Origin: Lysobacteraceae bacterium NML95-0200
GTDB taxonomy: Bacteria; Pseudomonadota; Gammaproteobacteria; Xanthomonadales; Xanthomonadaceae
Direction: 5' to 3'
NCBI GenBank assembly: GCA_002798255.1
Contig: NWQQ01000001.1
Coordinates: 1-45,445, forward strand
DNA length: 45,445 bases
Below, piece after piece: positions 16,182 through 45,134 of the stretch. The notes below the pieces were generated by a model that saw nothing but the letters and a program-made list of their open reading frames with translations, was not told where the DNA came from and searched no databases. Positions within the stretch are counted from its first letter, which is position 1; each line of letters starts with the position of its first letter. A program made the translations under genes and the position numbers.

Positions 16182-18548
<2,367 letters not shown>

Positions 18549-18552
<4 letters not shown>

Positions 18553-22582: not shown

Positions 22583-22624
22583 AGCGCGCCCATCACCCTG
22601 CGACGAAATCACAACACCCCCTGT

Positions 22625-22702
22625 GTCACCCTGCGCGAAGTCGCAGGGTCTGCTGGGGATGCAGAAAGATTCTGCGACTGCGCTTCGCTTGCGCAGAATG
22701 AC
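22625..22702. repeat. REP/REPIN-like pair of hairpins, copy A
   Basis: Two stem-loops face each other: ACCCTGCG (22628-22635) with CGCAGGGT (22642-22649), and ATTCTGCG (22669-22676) with CGCAGAAT (22692-22699). GTCA and TGAC close the outer ends. This is the architecture of REPIN elements. Related copies occur at 22970-23076 and 35924-36000. Confidence 0.8.
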
Positions 22703-22768
22703 GGCTGCTTTTGCCGTTGCTCTTGCTTTTGCTTTCCGCCCGCCTCGGACGCGCCGAGTACCGCAGCG

Positions 22769-22830
22769 GCCAATGGAAACAAGGCAGGGCGTGTTTGAGC
22801 GCAAGCGAGTTTGCCCTGCCGCCATTGGTC
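22769..22830. repeat. Nested inverted repeat in the centre of the repeat block
   Basis: CCAATGG (22770-22776) pairs with CCATTGG (22822-22828), and inside it GGCAGGGC (22783-22790) pairs with GCCCTGCC (22813-22820). The arms form one long interrupted hairpin, as expected of a structured RNA or a miniature transposable element. Confidence 0.7.
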
Positions 22831-22888
22831 ACGAGGAACGCAGGGCACCTTGCGCAGCAAGGCGCGGTAGCCAGGGCTGGTTTCTTTG

Positions 22889-22918
22889 CCTCCTTTCTTT
22901 GCCGGCAAAGAAAGGAGG
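22889..22918. repeat. Perfect 30-base palindrome
   Basis: The two 15-base halves (22889-22903 and 22904-22918) are exact reverse complements with no spacer, centred on GCCGGC. The half-site is CCTCCTTTCTTTGCC. It would form a cruciform or a very tight hairpin. Confidence 0.92.
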
Positions 22919-22969
22919 TGCGCCGCCGGGCGCAATCCCGGCGTTGAGCAAACATCGAAAACCCGGAAG

Positions 22970-23076
22970 ATTCTGCGACTGCGCTTCGCTTGCGCAGAAT
23001 GACGGGTAATTTTTACCCCAGCCACCTTGCGCAAGCCGCATCCCCCCACCCCGTCACCCTGCGCGTAGTCGCAGGG
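22970..23076. repeat. REP-like pair of hairpins, copy B
   Basis: ATTCTGCG (22970-22977) pairs with CGCAGAAT (22993-23000), and CCCTGCG (23057-23063) pairs with CGCAGGG (23070-23076). The two stems are in the opposite order to copy A (TGAC and GTCA meet in the middle), so the copies flank the centre asymmetrically. About 35 bases around the first stem are identical to copy A. Confidence 0.8.
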
Positions 23077-23249
23077 ACTGCTGCAAATACTGCATAAAAG
23101 ACACATTGCTTCTTGATCGCGCCACGCTCCGCGAGCTTGAACAGGCTCTGAACACCCGGCCATCGCAAAACCGCCACTCATCCACCATTACCCCGCAAGC
23201 CGCTACATTGCCGGTCTCGGCTCAAACCAAGACTTTCAAGGAATTGCCC

Positions 23250-40751: not shown

Positions 40752-41253
40752 CCGGGTTGAGCACCCGCGCCTCGGTCACGCGCGGCTCATCCAGCTGCGC
40801 CATCATCCATGTCAGCCGCTGAGCAGGCGGCTGGCGCAGCAGCGCCGCCCGCAGAGCCGCACGCGCTTGCGGCGGCGTGGAAAACGCAAGCCGCGCCAAT
40901 ATTTCCAGCTCGGCAGGGCTCATCGAATGCAGCAGCCGCAGCAGCTCGTCGCGCTCCTGCTCCGGCACATAGGCCAGCAAAGGTTGCAGCACCGGATACC
41001 AGCGCCCCAGTACCGGCCCCAGCCGCCAGCCGCGCTGCTCATCACCATCCAGGCGCGCAAATTTCGCCCGCAAGGCAGCCTGCTCACTGGCAGGCAGAGC
41101 CGAGAACGCCGCCGCTGATTGCCGCAAGGCCGATTGTTGCGCAGCAGGCAGGCGCAGCCAGGCATGTTTTTCTTCGCGCGCATTTTGCGCCCATGCGCCT
41201 TGCGTCGCCAGCAGCACCGCCAGCAACACACCGCGCCGCAAGCGGTCAGTCAT
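40744..41253 (-). CDS. DUF3106 secreted protein
   Basis: The 169-residue product has a signal peptide (MTDRLRRGVLLAVLLATQGAWAQ) and the DUF3106 body: AWLRLPAAQQSALRQSAAAFSALPASEQAALRAKFARLD, a helical repeat of about 130 residues, followed by LAYVPEQERDELLRLLHSMSP. It is periplasmic with unknown function. The ATG at 41253 overlaps the stop of the sigma-like gene by eight bases, so it is translated from that message. Confidence 0.85.
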   Translation of the reverse strand: MTDRLRRGVLLAVLLATQGAWAQNAREEKHAWLRLPAAQQSALRQSAAAFSALPASEQAALRAKFARLDGDEQRGWRLGPVLGRWYPVLQPLLAYVPEQERDELLRLLHSMSPAELEILARLAFSTPPQARAALRAALLRQPPAQRLTWMMAQLDEPRVTEARVLNPVR

Positions 41254-42157
41254 CCATCGGCTCCGGTAAGGGTTCTTCTTGCCAGTCCGCCGACTCCGGC
41301 GGCAGCTCGATGGGGGCTTCTTCAGGAATATCCGGCAGCAAGCTGCCCGCCTGCCCCAGCCGCTCGGCCTGATACCAGGCAAAGAATGCCGTTTCAGCGG
41401 CAACCGGCGTGTCTTGTACGGAAATCCCCGAAAACTCCCGGTCAACCAGCACCCGCGCAGTCCCGGCATCGTAGCGAGCAGGCGCACGCTCGGCCAAAGG
41501 CTTGGTCTGGATGCGGGGCGGGATTTGATAAGTCGAGTCTTCTGCTTCATTCTCGGGCGGCCAGAACCAGGTCGCCACCAGCGCCATCCCGGTGGCAAGC
41601 GCCACTGCCAGTAGCCACCCCCAGCGCCTTGGCGGCGCTTCCGCCGATGGCTGTAGTGGCCTTTCACCATTCATATATTGCTCAATGCGAGCCCGGCGCG
41701 CCGGCGAAAAACCACGCTGACGCATCTCCAGCGCCGTGCGGCAGGCCTCCAGTTCAGCCGCGCTCAACTGGCGCTGCGCCTGCGCCCACAGCCGCTGACC
41801 GTCTTGGGGAGAAATTTTCAAAAGCGCGGCTACTTCAATCATGCTTCTGCCCGACAGCAGCACCAGCAACAGCATTAAACGCTGCCCTGGACTTAGGCGC
41901 TGCAATGGCTGCAAAGCCTGCCCCATCATCGGCATCTTGCCTGCCTGAAGCCCCGGCATCTCCAGCATTGCCCGCCACGCACGCAGCGGCGACAAACCTG
42001 ATTCCTGCTGCCCTGCCAGCAATACGCGGGCAGCCACGGCATCAGCCAGCACCGCATCACCCAGCATCAGCTCGGCGAAAATCGCCAGGCTCGAAGTCAA
42101 GTCATGGGCAGTATCCGGCCTTGGGGCGGTTGCAACAGGGGAAAGAGGCGCAGACAT
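41246..42157 (-). CDS. Sigma-region-4-like protein with a transmembrane segment
   Basis: The 303-residue protein has no exact family I can name. Residues about 84-132 (LQRLSPGQRLMLLLVLLSGRSMIEVAALL then KISPQDGQRLWAQAQRQL) look like a sigma-70 region 4 helix-turn-helix. One membrane helix follows at 179-199, and the last 100 residues are acidic and proline-rich and would lie outside the cytoplasm. No region 2 of a sigma factor is seen. A DNA-binding head plus a membrane anchor suggests a membrane-tied regulator or anti-sigma-like protein. The gene is directly upstream of DUF3106, where a sigma factor usually stands in this group. Confidence 0.65.
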   Translation of the reverse strand: MSAPLSPVATAPRPDTAHDLTSSLAIFAELMLGDAVLADAVAARVLLAGQQESGLSPLRAWRAMLEMPGLQAGKMPMMGQALQPLQRLSPGQRLMLLLVLLSGRSMIEVAALLKISPQDGQRLWAQAQRQLSAAELEACRTALEMRQRGFSPARRARIEQYMNGERPLQPSAEAPPRRWGWLLAVALATGMALVATWFWPPENEAEDSTYQIPPRIQTKPLAERAPARYDAGTARVLVDREFSGISVQDTPVAAETAFFAWYQAERLGQAGSLLPDIPEEAPIELPPESADWQEEPLPEPMDD

Positions 42158-42434
42158 CGGCAGCGATGATACGCGCTGTCATGCAATACGCCAGCTTTAT
42201 TTGGCAGATGCAGAAAACCATGCCGTTTGCAAGCCTTATCGCGCATGTTGTGCACAATTCCTTGCAAGCCGCGCAGCGCCATACGGCATTCCCCCCACAG
42301 GCCGTACTCACCCGGAAAAAACACATAAATCATTGTTTTTATTGATTCAATTTTGCCTGGCTTTTTTTTCACCAGCCATCTCCAGGCCTGTCATGGCGGG
42401 GGAAATCGCCCTCTTTCCCACAACAATCAACATA

Positions 42435-42459
42435 CTTATCCACAGGCGTTGTGGATAAG
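42435..42459. promoter_or_regulatory. Inverted pair of perfect DnaA boxes, pair 1
   Basis: CTTATCCACA (42435-42444) and TGTGGATAAG (42450-42459) are reverse complements across a five-base spacer. Each holds the perfect high-affinity DnaA box TTATCCACA. Confidence 0.9.
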
Positions 42460-42573
42460 CAGTTTTTTCCTTTTTCAACAAGGCATTGCGGGAGTTTCAC
42501 CAAATGACAGCCTGACCCTCTGATAACAGAGCCGCATCCCGGCATGCAGAAAGCACAGGCAATTGCAAGCCCC

Positions 42574-42615
42574 CAATTCCATGTTTTGCACAAGGGCAGG
42601 CAGAACATGGAATTG
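42574..42615. repeat. Long inverted repeat with a DnaA-box-like core
   Basis: CAATTCCATGTT (42574-42585) and AACATGGAATTG (42604-42615) match perfectly; after one mismatch, three more pairs (42587-42589 with 42600-42602) extend the stem to 15 of 16. A TTTTGCACA that fits the DnaA consensus TTWTNCACA lies at 42584-42592 in the arm and loop. Confidence 0.82.
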
Positions 42616-42683
42616 CACAAAAAATCAATCCCTACAAACAGGTTTCATGCGCGTTTCACGCTCAAGCAATTGTTTTTTATGGG

Positions 42684-42705
42684 AAAATTTGGCATGGCAA
42701 ATTTT
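42684..42705. repeat. AT-rich palindrome
   Basis: AAAATTTG (42684-42691) pairs with CAAATTTT (42698-42705) over a six-base loop. It is part of the DnaA-box region. Confidence 0.75.
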
Positions 42706-42772
42706 TCGCCATCTCCCCTCAAGCCCTATGGTGGCGGGCAAAACCAGCCACTTTCCTGCGGCTATCAACAGA

Positions 42773-42797
42773 GTTATCCACAGCCCTTGTGGATAAC
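42773..42797. promoter_or_regulatory. Inverted pair of perfect DnaA boxes, pair 2
   Basis: GTTATCCACA (42773-42782) and TGTGGATAAC (42788-42797) are reverse complements with the same five-base spacer as pair 1. The first boxes of the two pairs are 338 bases apart. Pair 2 ends 111 bases before the priA ATG. Confidence 0.9.
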
Positions 42798-42908
42798 GGT
42801 ATCTATCCTTTAAAAACAACACATTGCGACATATTCGTCATCTTGGCAGACAACCTTGCCATGCAACTAAGGTCTACCAGCCGGAGCTACCGGCTCTAAA
42901 ATGCCGCC

Positions 42909-45134
42909 ATGCCAAGCGCCTCCACCCTGCAACTTGCCCTGCCGGTGCCACTGCCGCAGCTGTTCGATTACAGCCCGCCCGAGGGGCATGCGCCACAGTC
43001 TGGCGATATCGGCCGGCGTCTGCGCGTGCCATTTGGCAGGCGTGAACTGGTCGGCATCGTGACGGCAATTGGCAGTAACTCCGGGCAACAGGAGTTACGT
43101 CCCGCACTTGACTTTCTCGACGCCGAGCCGCTGCTGCATGGCGAACTCTGGCAATCACTCCAGTGGCTGGCGGGCTATCTGCATGCCCCGCTGGGCGAAG
43201 TCTTGGCCACCGCCCTGCCAACGGCCTTGCGGCAGGGCGAGCCGCTGCCCGATACCGCACTGTATGGCTGGTATCTCAGCGATAGCGGCGAGCAGGCGCT
43301 TGCACAAATGCGCCAAGGCCGTCCCCGGCAGTTGGCGGAATATCTGGCAGCGCATCCGGGTATCAGCGAAAGCCTGCTGGATGCCCAGCAGCCGGGCTGG
43401 CGAACTGCCATGCGTACGCTGGAAAAGCGCGGTCAGGTCGAGCGCCGCATCATGGCTGCACCGACTTCATCCACTCCAGCCAATCGCCGCATCCTGAATG
43501 CCGAGCAGCAAAGCGCCGCCGATGCCATCTGTCAAGCGGAAGGCTTCCAGCCCTTCCTGCTCGATGGCATCACCGGCAGCGGCAAGACCGAAGTTTATCT
43601 GGAGGCCATCGCCGCCTGCCTGGCGCGCGAGCAGCAGGCACTGGTGCTGGTACCGGAAATCGGTCTGACCCCGCAAATGCTTGCCCGTTTCCAGCACCGT
43701 CTGGGGGTGGAAGTGCATGCCCTGCATTCCGGGCTTTCCGATACCGAGCGCGCCCGCGTCTGGGCCGCCGCCTGGCGTGGCCAGGCACAGGTCATCGTCG
43801 GTACGCGCTCTAGCGTTTTCGTCCCCCTGCCCAAGGCTGGCCTCATCGTGGTGGATGAAGAACACGACAGTAGTTACAAGCAATTCGATGGCATCCGCTA
43901 CCACGCCCGTGATTTCGCCCTGGTGCGCGCCAAGGCACTGAACATCCCGGTGGTACTGGGCAGTGCCACCCCCTCGCTGGAAACGCTGGCCAATGCCCGC
44001 CAAGGTCGCTTTCATCGCCTGCGCCTCAGCCAGCGGGCGGCCAATGCGAATCCACCTGCAGTACAAGTCATGGACATCCGCAAGCGCCCCTTGCAAGCCG
44101 GACTCTCGCCCGAAGCCTTGCAAGCCATCAAGGATGCCCTGAGCGCAGGCGGGCAGGTGCTGGTATTCAAAAACCGGCGCGGCTATGCCCCCAGCCTGCT
44201 CTGCCACGATTGCGGCTGGAGCGCCCACTGCCCACGATGTAGCACCGATACTCATGGCAGCGCGATGACGGTTCATGGGCATGGCCGACGCTTGCAGTGT
44301 CATCATTGCGGCCAGCATCGTCCTTCGCCGCCTGCCTGCCCCGCTTGCGGCGGACTGGCGCTGCAACCACAAGGCAATGGCACCGAGCGAATCGAAGCAT
44401 ATCTTGCAGAGAAATTCGCCGATTTCCCGGTTATCCGCATTGATAAAGGCAGCACTCAAGGCCGCAATGCCCTGCAAAAACACTTCGATACACTCGGCAA
44501 CCAGCCCGGTATCCTGGTTGGTACGCAGATGTTAGCCAAGGGGCATGACCTGCCCAATCTCACCCTGGTTGTGGTGGTCGGCATTGATGAAGGACTGTAT
44601 TCGGCGGATTTTCGCAGCCCGGAAAAACTCGCCCAGTTACTCATTCAAGTCGCCGGGCGCGCAGGCCGCGCCAGCAAGGGCGGGCAGGTATTACTGCAAA
44701 CCCACCATCCTGAGCATTGGCTTTTGCAGACGCTGATTGGTGGCGGCTATCACGCGTTTGCCGAAGGCGCGTTATCCGAACGGGAGGCTACAGGTTTTCC
44801 GCCATTTTCTTATCTGGCGTTGCTGCGTGCTGAAGGCAGAGAGGCGGACGTGGCGCTGGCGTTTCTTCAGCAGGCCCGGAAGTTGCTTGAAGCGGGCTTG
44901 GGTAGGCCGGCCTTGCCATTCCATGGCGCAAGCAGTGCGCTGGGCTTGAGTGGCCCGGCGCCTGCACCGCACCCACGGCGGGCAGGTTACCAGCGCGCAC
45001 AGTTATTGATTTCCGCCGCACAACGCAAGCCTTTGCATCAGGCGCTGCGGGCTGTGATACCGCTGCTTTATGCACTGCCGGAGGCGCGCAAAGTACGCTG
45101 GTCTTTGGATATTGACCCGCTGGATTTGCACTAA
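42909..45134 (+). CDS. priA: PriA, primosomal replication restart helicase
   Basis: PriA recognises stalled forks and restarts replication away from the origin. The 741-residue protein has the N-terminal DNA-binding part (LPVPLPQLFDYSPPEG, the 3' end pocket), Walker A GITGSGKT (220-227), DEEH (316-319), the eight-cysteine zinc insertion CHDCGWSAHCPRC with CHHCG and CPACG (around 435-480), and later helicase motifs GTQMLAKGHDLPNL and QVAGRAGRASKGG. The ATG at 42909 fits the family start. It is flanked by a DnaA-box region on one side and by an rRNA operon end on the other. Confidence 0.96.
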   Translation: MPSASTLQLALPVPLPQLFDYSPPEGHAPQSGDIGRRLRVPFGRRELVGIVTAIGSNSGQQELRPALDFLDAEPLLHGELWQSLQWLAGYLHAPLGEVLATALPTALRQGEPLPDTALYGWYLSDSGEQALAQMRQGRPRQLAEYLAAHPGISESLLDAQQPGWRTAMRTLEKRGQVERRIMAAPTSSTPANRRILNAEQQSAADAICQAEGFQPFLLDGITGSGKTEVYLEAIAACLAREQQALVLVPEIGLTPQMLARFQHRLGVEVHALHSGLSDTERARVWAAAWRGQAQVIVGTRSSVFVPLPKAGLIVVDEEHDSSYKQFDGIRYHARDFALVRAKALNIPVVLGSATPSLETLANARQGRFHRLRLSQRAANANPPAVQVMDIRKRPLQAGLSPEALQAIKDALSAGGQVLVFKNRRGYAPSLLCHDCGWSAHCPRCSTDTHGSAMTVHGHGRRLQCHHCGQHRPSPPACPACGGLALQPQGNGTERIEAYLAEKFADFPVIRIDKGSTQGRNALQKHFDTLGNQPGILVGTQMLAKGHDLPNLTLVVVVGIDEGLYSADFRSPEKLAQLLIQVAGRAGRASKGGQVLLQTHHPEHWLLQTLIGGGYHAFAEGALSEREATGFPPFSYLALLRAEGREADVALAFLQQARKLLEAGLGRPALPFHGASSALGLSGPAPAPHPRRAGYQRAQLLISAAQRKPLHQALRAVIPLLYALPEARKVRWSLDIDPLDLH

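Follow-up and report, generated by a model that had tools for sequence, protein, structure and literature searches.

Positions 42326–42796 of the window (the whole stretch of DNA analysed here, 45,445 nt in length) very probably hold two DARS (DnaA-reactivating sequence) modules in tandem, both of which would work like E. coli DARS. A sequence-only reading of this DNA had proposed a DnaA-binding control site such as datA or DARS, a second origin or a relocated oriC, and among these DARS is the one that the architecture strongly supports, both through a layout in which three DnaA boxes are separated by 3 and 5 bp and through recognition by a core matrix. In its favour stand the constant distance of the third box across the elements compared, and the fact that a class-trained core matrix ranks DARS1, and then the DARS2 core, first in E. 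coli. On this analysis a DnaA-recharging function of the modules has a high probability. DARS constitutes one half of the E. coli replication-timing switch.

Two inverted pairs of perfect DnaA boxes precede priA

A sequence search of the window located four perfect TTATCCACA 9-mers, at 42436–42444 (+, box II of copy 1), 42450–42458 (−, inverted box I of copy 1), 42774–42782 (+, box II of copy 2) and 42788–42796 (−, inverted box I of copy 2). Both pairs have the form TTATCCACA-N5-TGTGGATAA, with the spacers GGCGT in copy 1 and GCCCT in copy 2, and the pair starts lie 338 bp apart. The description of two perfect inverted pairs with a 5-bp spacer, 338 bases apart and upstream of priA, was thus confirmed in full; the pairs are real, and the ranges first given for them (42435–42459 and 42773–42797) were one base too wide on each side. 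They are housed in a 751-bp intergenic gap between a minus-strand ORF (41246–42157) and priA (42909–45134, +; NF004067, E 2e-295), which starts 112 bp past box I of copy 2 and whose best-matching named priA genes include those of Luteimonas, Stenotrophomonas and Pseudoxanthomonas, which makes a host within the Xanthomonadaceae probable. Genome-wide, 14 perfect TTATCCACA boxes were counted (5 for a reversed control pattern), four of them within the 361-bp stretch upstream of priA, and the inverted perfect pair is confined to this stretch within the 2.38-Mb genome. When up to three mismatches were allowed, the sole extra match in the genome was one 3-mismatch site on contig C6.

An Rfam scan of 42100–43000 and a plasmid blastn search with 42300–42905 gave no match. 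Three terminator-like calls were obtained in 42150–42920, of which the two at 42433–42461 correspond to the palindrome itself. At 42574–42615, between both modules, two 16-nt arms (94% complementary) form an inverted repeat around a 10-nt loop. As had been claimed, Hda is encoded in the window, at 17851–18552 (−; Hda_lid match), about 24 kb from the sites, and its location gave nothing to link it to them; ORF 22609–23181 was rejected as a candidate for Hda, having no family match.

A third box and predicted IHF and Fis sites accompany each pair

Both window cores run box III–3 bp–box II–5 bp–inverted box I. With the first base of box II taken as position zero for all offsets, copy 1 comprises a predicted IHF site TAAATCATTGTTT (42326–42338, +; 8/9 to TAANNNNTTGATW; −110), a predicted Fis site GGCTTTTTTTTCACC (42359–42373; 9/11 informative positions; −77) and box III CAATCAACA (42424–42432, +; 6/9), and copy 2 comprises a predicted IHF site CAAGCAATTGTTT (42663–42675, +; 7/9; −111), a predicted Fis site GGCAAATTTTTCGCC (42696–42710; 9/11; −78) and box III CTATCAACA (42762–42770, +; 7/9). 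Judged by sequence, the order of sites is core–Fis–IHF, both protein sites being on the side of box III. That the IHF, Fis and box III sites of the window are all imperfect counts against the DARS reading. The window genome contains a 97-aa frame with a Fis-type HTH and four proteins assigned to the HU/IHF family as a group.

After removal of duplicates and of elements with less than 60 bp of flank, 69 distinct elements were left. Of these, 68 had a box III (at least 6/9) on a single side of the pair, at a distance of exactly 3 bp, compared with 1.4 expected from shuffled flanks, which supports the DARS reading; the sole element without it was L017. At the remaining gaps of 0–15 in the same orientation, a box-III-like 9-mer was found in only 0–9 of the 69. 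As the element sets were chosen by their perfect pair, boxes I and II are bound to be conserved in them, and some elements are closely related, so that counts are not independent events. Among the later in-class elements L249–L254, box III was present in five of six, L249 being the exception; nor were IHF and Fis found at their usual positions in L249 or L250. These absences, of box III in L017 and L249 and of IHF and Fis in L249 and L250, argue against DARS.

Alignment of the elements on their cores revealed, on the side of box III, a stretch of conserved sequence whose end is near −113, with an IHF consensus from about −111 and a Fis 15-mer at −78. The IHF consensus, with at most one mismatch, fell at −113 to −108 in 14 of 25 class elements and in 29 of 52 same-order elements, the latter including both window copies (0.1 expected in each set). 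Fis, also with at most one mismatch, fell at −79 to −77 in 11/25 and 15/52 elements, respectively (less than 0.1 expected), a statistic that depends on the consensus chosen and is scored on a scale of 11; the strict Fis limit was passed by under half of the elements. An independent scan from −150 to about −25 with looser limits detected IHF and Fis together in 51 of 88 elements, whereas 50 shuffles gave a mean of 3.7 and a maximum of 8. The starts of the two sites were offset by 32 or 33 bp in 37 of these 51 elements; the other 14 scatter, a further point against the DARS reading. Five elements (L021, L022, L023, L029 and L030) have both sites nearer the core by about 11 bp, a joint displacement of roughly one helical turn; L030 has an IHF site of only 7/9, and the other four also pass the looser independent scan. 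This joint shift constitutes a natural helical-phase experiment. Four of the five shifted elements have neighbours that, recognised by eye, we take to be exonuclease I-, RecR- or ComEA-like. On the box-I side, TT steps at +50/+51 and +60/+61 from box II, 10 bp apart, occur in about 70–80% of same-order elements; they are weaker outside the same order and match no recognised site.

The ABC-primosome offers the idea of loading at a DnaA-box hairpin. In the window, the arms of each pair form a perfect 9-bp palindrome around a 5-nt loop, adjoining priA, and the pair could on that account act as a single-strand hairpin for primosome loading. We regard this as very improbable, given that such a hairpin has no need for a box III at 3 bp or for phased IHF and Fis sites, and that DARS1 and DARS2 retain the spacing despite imperfect arms.

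The module is duplicated in tandem

The two modules are part of a tandem duplication (42208–42883, +) with a unit of about 337 bp, in which the sequence from 42208 is repeated from 42544 and each unit holds one whole module; the repeat blocks lie at a spacing of 336–338 and show 71–75% identity. Between copy 1 and copy 2, identity amounts to 197/332 over the unit, 93/135 over the module, 30/35 over the core and 54/96 downstream of the core, and the drop from core to module to downstream stretch is as would be expected if selection kept both copies. Two copies of the module would provide a higher dosage of DnaA-recharging activity.

Arrays were found in four species of the genus: the window genome (2 copies), G001 (2, one arm mismatched), G006 (2) and G010 (3), with copies spaced 336–339 bp, and the other 12 genus loci fetched have a single copy. 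Such natural tandem arrays are ready dosage experiments. Two DARS cores 305 bp apart were also seen upstream of priA in a named gammaproteobacterial genome (L080), possibly as an independent tandem pair. A second DnaA-box cluster is located on contig C6 of the window genome (17794–18114), with two perfect boxes and several with 1–2 mismatches in both orientations. It contains GGTGATTTTTTCACC, Fis-like by eye, precedes a gene that is MarR-like by eye, and scores below 15 bits as a DARS core; it was matched in 4 of 17 genus genomes, exactly the four species with tandem DARS arrays.

Spread of the core among relatives, class and phylum

The comparison with relatives that the sequence-only reading had put forward was carried out in 60 genomes, the window genome itself and relatives, from 12 families. 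A perfect N5 pair is present in 48 of them, mostly exactly once, with a spacer of variable sequence and constant length. Nine of the other 12 have a core with 1–3 mismatches (G052 requiring 3), and three of these nine have priA in the locus; even with mismatches allowed, no core match was obtained in the remaining genomes of the 60 (G014, G021 and G023).

At the level of the class, 143 genomes, drawn with two exceptions from different families, were searched for a perfect inverted pair with a gap of 0–30, which was found in 68 (the reversed control pattern in 2); the 75 without it speak against the DARS reading. Counted by eye, the gap was exactly 5 for 67 out of the 75 listed forward matches, the others being N17 (twice), N22, N24 (twice), N29 and N30 (twice). 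Both N17 cases are, by eye, box III–box I pairs of a DARS core. G095 has, near the starts of contigs C30 and C61, two near-identical DnaA-box pairs whose 30-base spacer resembles an inverted repeat, and which may represent a repeat element that carries DnaA boxes.

Among 150 genomes sampled across the phylum, the N5 pair was present in 22, 9/37 inside the class and 13/113 outside. Of the 13 matches outside, 11 were fetched, and ten of these have box III at 3 bp; in none of the 11 do IHF and Fis occupy their conserved positions, which counts against DARS. The presence of box III where IHF and Fis are not in place suggests that the core may predate the regulated module, so that the bare core may be the older of the two. 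Three elements outside the class (L256, L257 and L258) have a good box III on both sides, that is, a symmetric four-box core.

The link to priA

Of 30 loci from the order, 20 have the element upstream of priA, usually at about 70–160 bp, and 2 have it just past the 3' end of priA; in the other 8, the 3-kb locus contains no priA. It is also upstream of priA in all 18 further loci fetched (15 of the genus, 3 of the family) and in 12 of the 26 class-level N5-pair loci fetched, for which at most 30 matches were taken. Conversely, 25 of 80 named priA loci have a core (at least 22 bits) within 800 bp upstream, some of them betaproteobacterial, e.g. Thiobacillus and Chromobacterium; several of the 80 have less than 600 bp upstream and are barely able to show a core, and in L200 and L206 the estimated priA start is seemingly too far upstream.

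This linkage equally suits a promoter role, and it is possible, if rather doubtful, that the site serves above all as a priA operator or promoter under DnaA control, coupling replication-restart capacity to the DnaA cycle. DARS1 offers a parallel, as it precedes uvrB, a gene listed as DnaA-repressed in the part of PMC11317965 available. Arguing against this alternative, a sigma-70-like promoter scan of 42150–42920, a weak test, gave none, and a priA operator leaves the 3/5 spacing common to DARS1 and DARS2 unexplained. Moreover, elements away from priA retain their sites: of the 24 not upstream of it, 23 were scored (L162 was left unscored), and raw counts in the expected zones gave IHF of at least 8/9 in 16 and Fis of at least 9/11 in 20, which indicates that the module is not tied to priA. 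L156, L175, L179 and L167 carry DARS-like modules beside genes that, by eye, we presume to be look-alikes of ksgA/rsmA (twice), dnaQ and lon.

The element is separated from the origin region

A second origin or a relocated oriC had also been proposed, and we find this exceedingly unlikely. The intergenic region does hold perfect DnaA boxes within its 751 bp, and the 50 bp from 42320 are 76% AT, though they overlap the predicted IHF site. Against an origin, the copy number of the module varies from 1 to 3, and dnaA with AT-rich, box-bearing DNA sits elsewhere. The earlier remark that dnaA is absent from the window holds, the genome's single Bac_DnaA match being on contig C10, where the 3' end of dnaA adjoins AT-rich DNA with the boxes TTATCCACA, TTATCCATA and TTTTCCACA; the ORF next to it is presumed, by position, to be dnaN. 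No DARS-core match of at least 15 bits was found in this dnaA region.

The GC-skew check suggested with the origin proposal was run in a closed genome of the same genus (G003), as 20 samples of 17–20 kb. Skew was −0.033 at 150–170 kb and −0.002 at 180–200 kb, and every sample between 250 kb and 1.2 Mb was positive. It thus turns between the 150–170 and 250–270 kb samples, just past dnaA, which is at 148 kb, rather than at the element, which is at 390 kb; the sample at 50–70 kb was positive, against the trend. Hence the skew minimum next to dnaA that characterises oriC is not a property of the element, the skew being that of the same-genus genome rather than of the window genome. In the window, no skew turn was seen at 42 kb, a position followed by only 3 kb. 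Distances between element and dnaA in six single-contig genomes were 58 kb (G039), 151 kb (G029), 193 kb (G013), 243 kb (G003), 263 kb (G012) and 749 kb (G022), or 2.4–15.1% of genome length.

Proposed mechanism and significance

Binding of DnaA, IHF and Fis, release of ADP and an effect on initiation are what we infer for the DARS modules from their likeness to the E. coli sites. ADP-DnaA would occupy boxes I, II and III, and the inverted boxes I and II would place DnaA molecules head to head through their AAA+ domains. This contact would lead to ADP release, after which apo-DnaA would depart and bind ATP, and the rise in ATP-DnaA would favour initiation at oriC. Bound to their sites next to box III, IHF and Fis would bend the DNA, and recharging would thereby depend on cell cycle and growth. 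Bound DnaA may possibly also influence transcription of priA. For DARS itself, a mechanism of head-to-head ADP-DnaA at boxes I and II followed by ADP release is described in the portions of PMC8682772 and PMC5742627 available.

The available portions of PMC5742627, PMC4245941, PMC8682772, PMC5010248 and PMC6090056 report DARS cores conserved beyond E. coli, and place them in beta- or gamma-proteobacteria close to E. coli and in V. cholerae, at positions like those of E. coli. These portions of the five papers contain no mention of priA-linked or tandem DARS, and no DARS at priA or in Xanthomonadales was found in the open literature, whose coverage, itself partial, excludes the founding report of Fujimitsu et al. 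2009. Relative to that literature as available, the location at priA, the order core–Fis–IHF, the tandem arrays of 2–3 copies in one clade and the breadth of distribution are new.

Opinion is evenly balanced, in our judgement, on a broader proposal: that the priA-upstream module, a core with helically phased Fis and IHF sites, represents an ancient and widespread gammaproteobacterial DnaA-recharging switch, of which E. coli DARS1 and DARS2 would be relocated variants, with the bare core extending beyond the class and recharging tuned by copy number, as in the arrays of 2–3 copies. If a module with fixed Fis/IHF phasing does span many gammaproteobacterial families, DnaA reactivation would become testable far beyond the kin of E. 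coli.

Comparison with E. coli DARS1, DARS2 and datA

In E. coli we read DARS1 as TAATACACA-3-TTATCCACA-5-AGTGGATAA and DARS2 as TTCTTCACA-3-CTATCCACA-5-GGTGAATAA; boxes I–III with identical spacing, box I being reversed, are described as common to both in the available part of PMC5742627. A 35-bp core matrix was built from 25 elements found in genomes of the class's other orders, possibly with an E. coli relative among them, and was used to scan 106.5 kb of E. coli K-12 comprising DARS1, DARS2, datA, other ChIP-bound DnaA loci (from Table 1 of PMC11317965, a paper available in part) and priA. DARS1 scored 39.0 bits, the DARS2 core 24.9 and a second DARS2 site 24.2, followed by datA at 16.0 and by opposite-strand readings of DARS sites at 15.7 and 13.2; lower scores were those of polA (11.7), another site near polA (9.1) and nrdA (8.5), and oriC was not among the 14 best matches in the 106.5 kb. 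No core match of at least 15 bits was found in the 12 kb around E. coli's own priA. A rebuilt matrix scored the window copies at 42.8 and 40.4 bits and gave no match of at least 20 in 1.45 Mb of shuffled sequence; rebuilds differ slightly in background and training rows, and scores are comparable between runs only roughly.

These scores bear on a datA-like role, in which the site would act as a DnaA sink or inactivating site that lowers free or ATP-bound DnaA. The window resembles datA as an intergenic DnaA-box cluster with IHF, and its high-affinity boxes and predicted IHF site would suit such a role, as would the origin-proximal place of the element in the six single-contig genomes. We nevertheless consider it unlikely, and the datA option raised at the outset fits poorly, in that datA falls well below both DARS cores in matrix score, has no head-to-head core and lacks an inverted box I at 5 bp. 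Head-to-head boxes I and II are a prominent DARS feature in the part of PMC5742627 available, and a predicted Fis site belongs to the module.

With DARS1, the top match of the E. coli matrix scan, the window module shares the III-3-II-5-inverted I boxes and an intergenic location, the differences being that DARS1 lies beside uvrB, whereas the window module lies beside priA, and that box I of DARS1 is one mismatch off. With DARS2 it shares the core spacing and, as predicted sites, IHF on the side of box III and Fis. A consensus scan of DARS2 placed IHF-like sites at −99 (+) and −83 (−), with 3 bp between them, in agreement with the 3 bp given for IBS1-2 in the available part of PMC4245941. According to the same partial source, displacing an IHF or Fis site of DARS2 by 5 bp was more harmful than by 10 bp in two of three comparisons, both being harmful in the third, and the joint 11-bp shift of Fis and IHF described above agrees with part of these results. 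DARS2, upstream of mutH, differs from the window in its order, core–IHF–Fis in that source as against core–Fis–IHF here with IHF at −110/−111, a point that counts against the DARS reading, and the window has two whole modules in tandem. IHF and Fis at fixed places on the box-III side bring the module near the DARS2 subtype at the level of predicted sites, and its order keeps it from being filed as DARS2; it lies upstream of priA rather than of uvrB or mutH. What points to DARS is the three-box 5/3 spacing, recognition by the core model and the non-coding location: the core is identical in layout to that of DARS1 and DARS2, and its arrangement and place are new.
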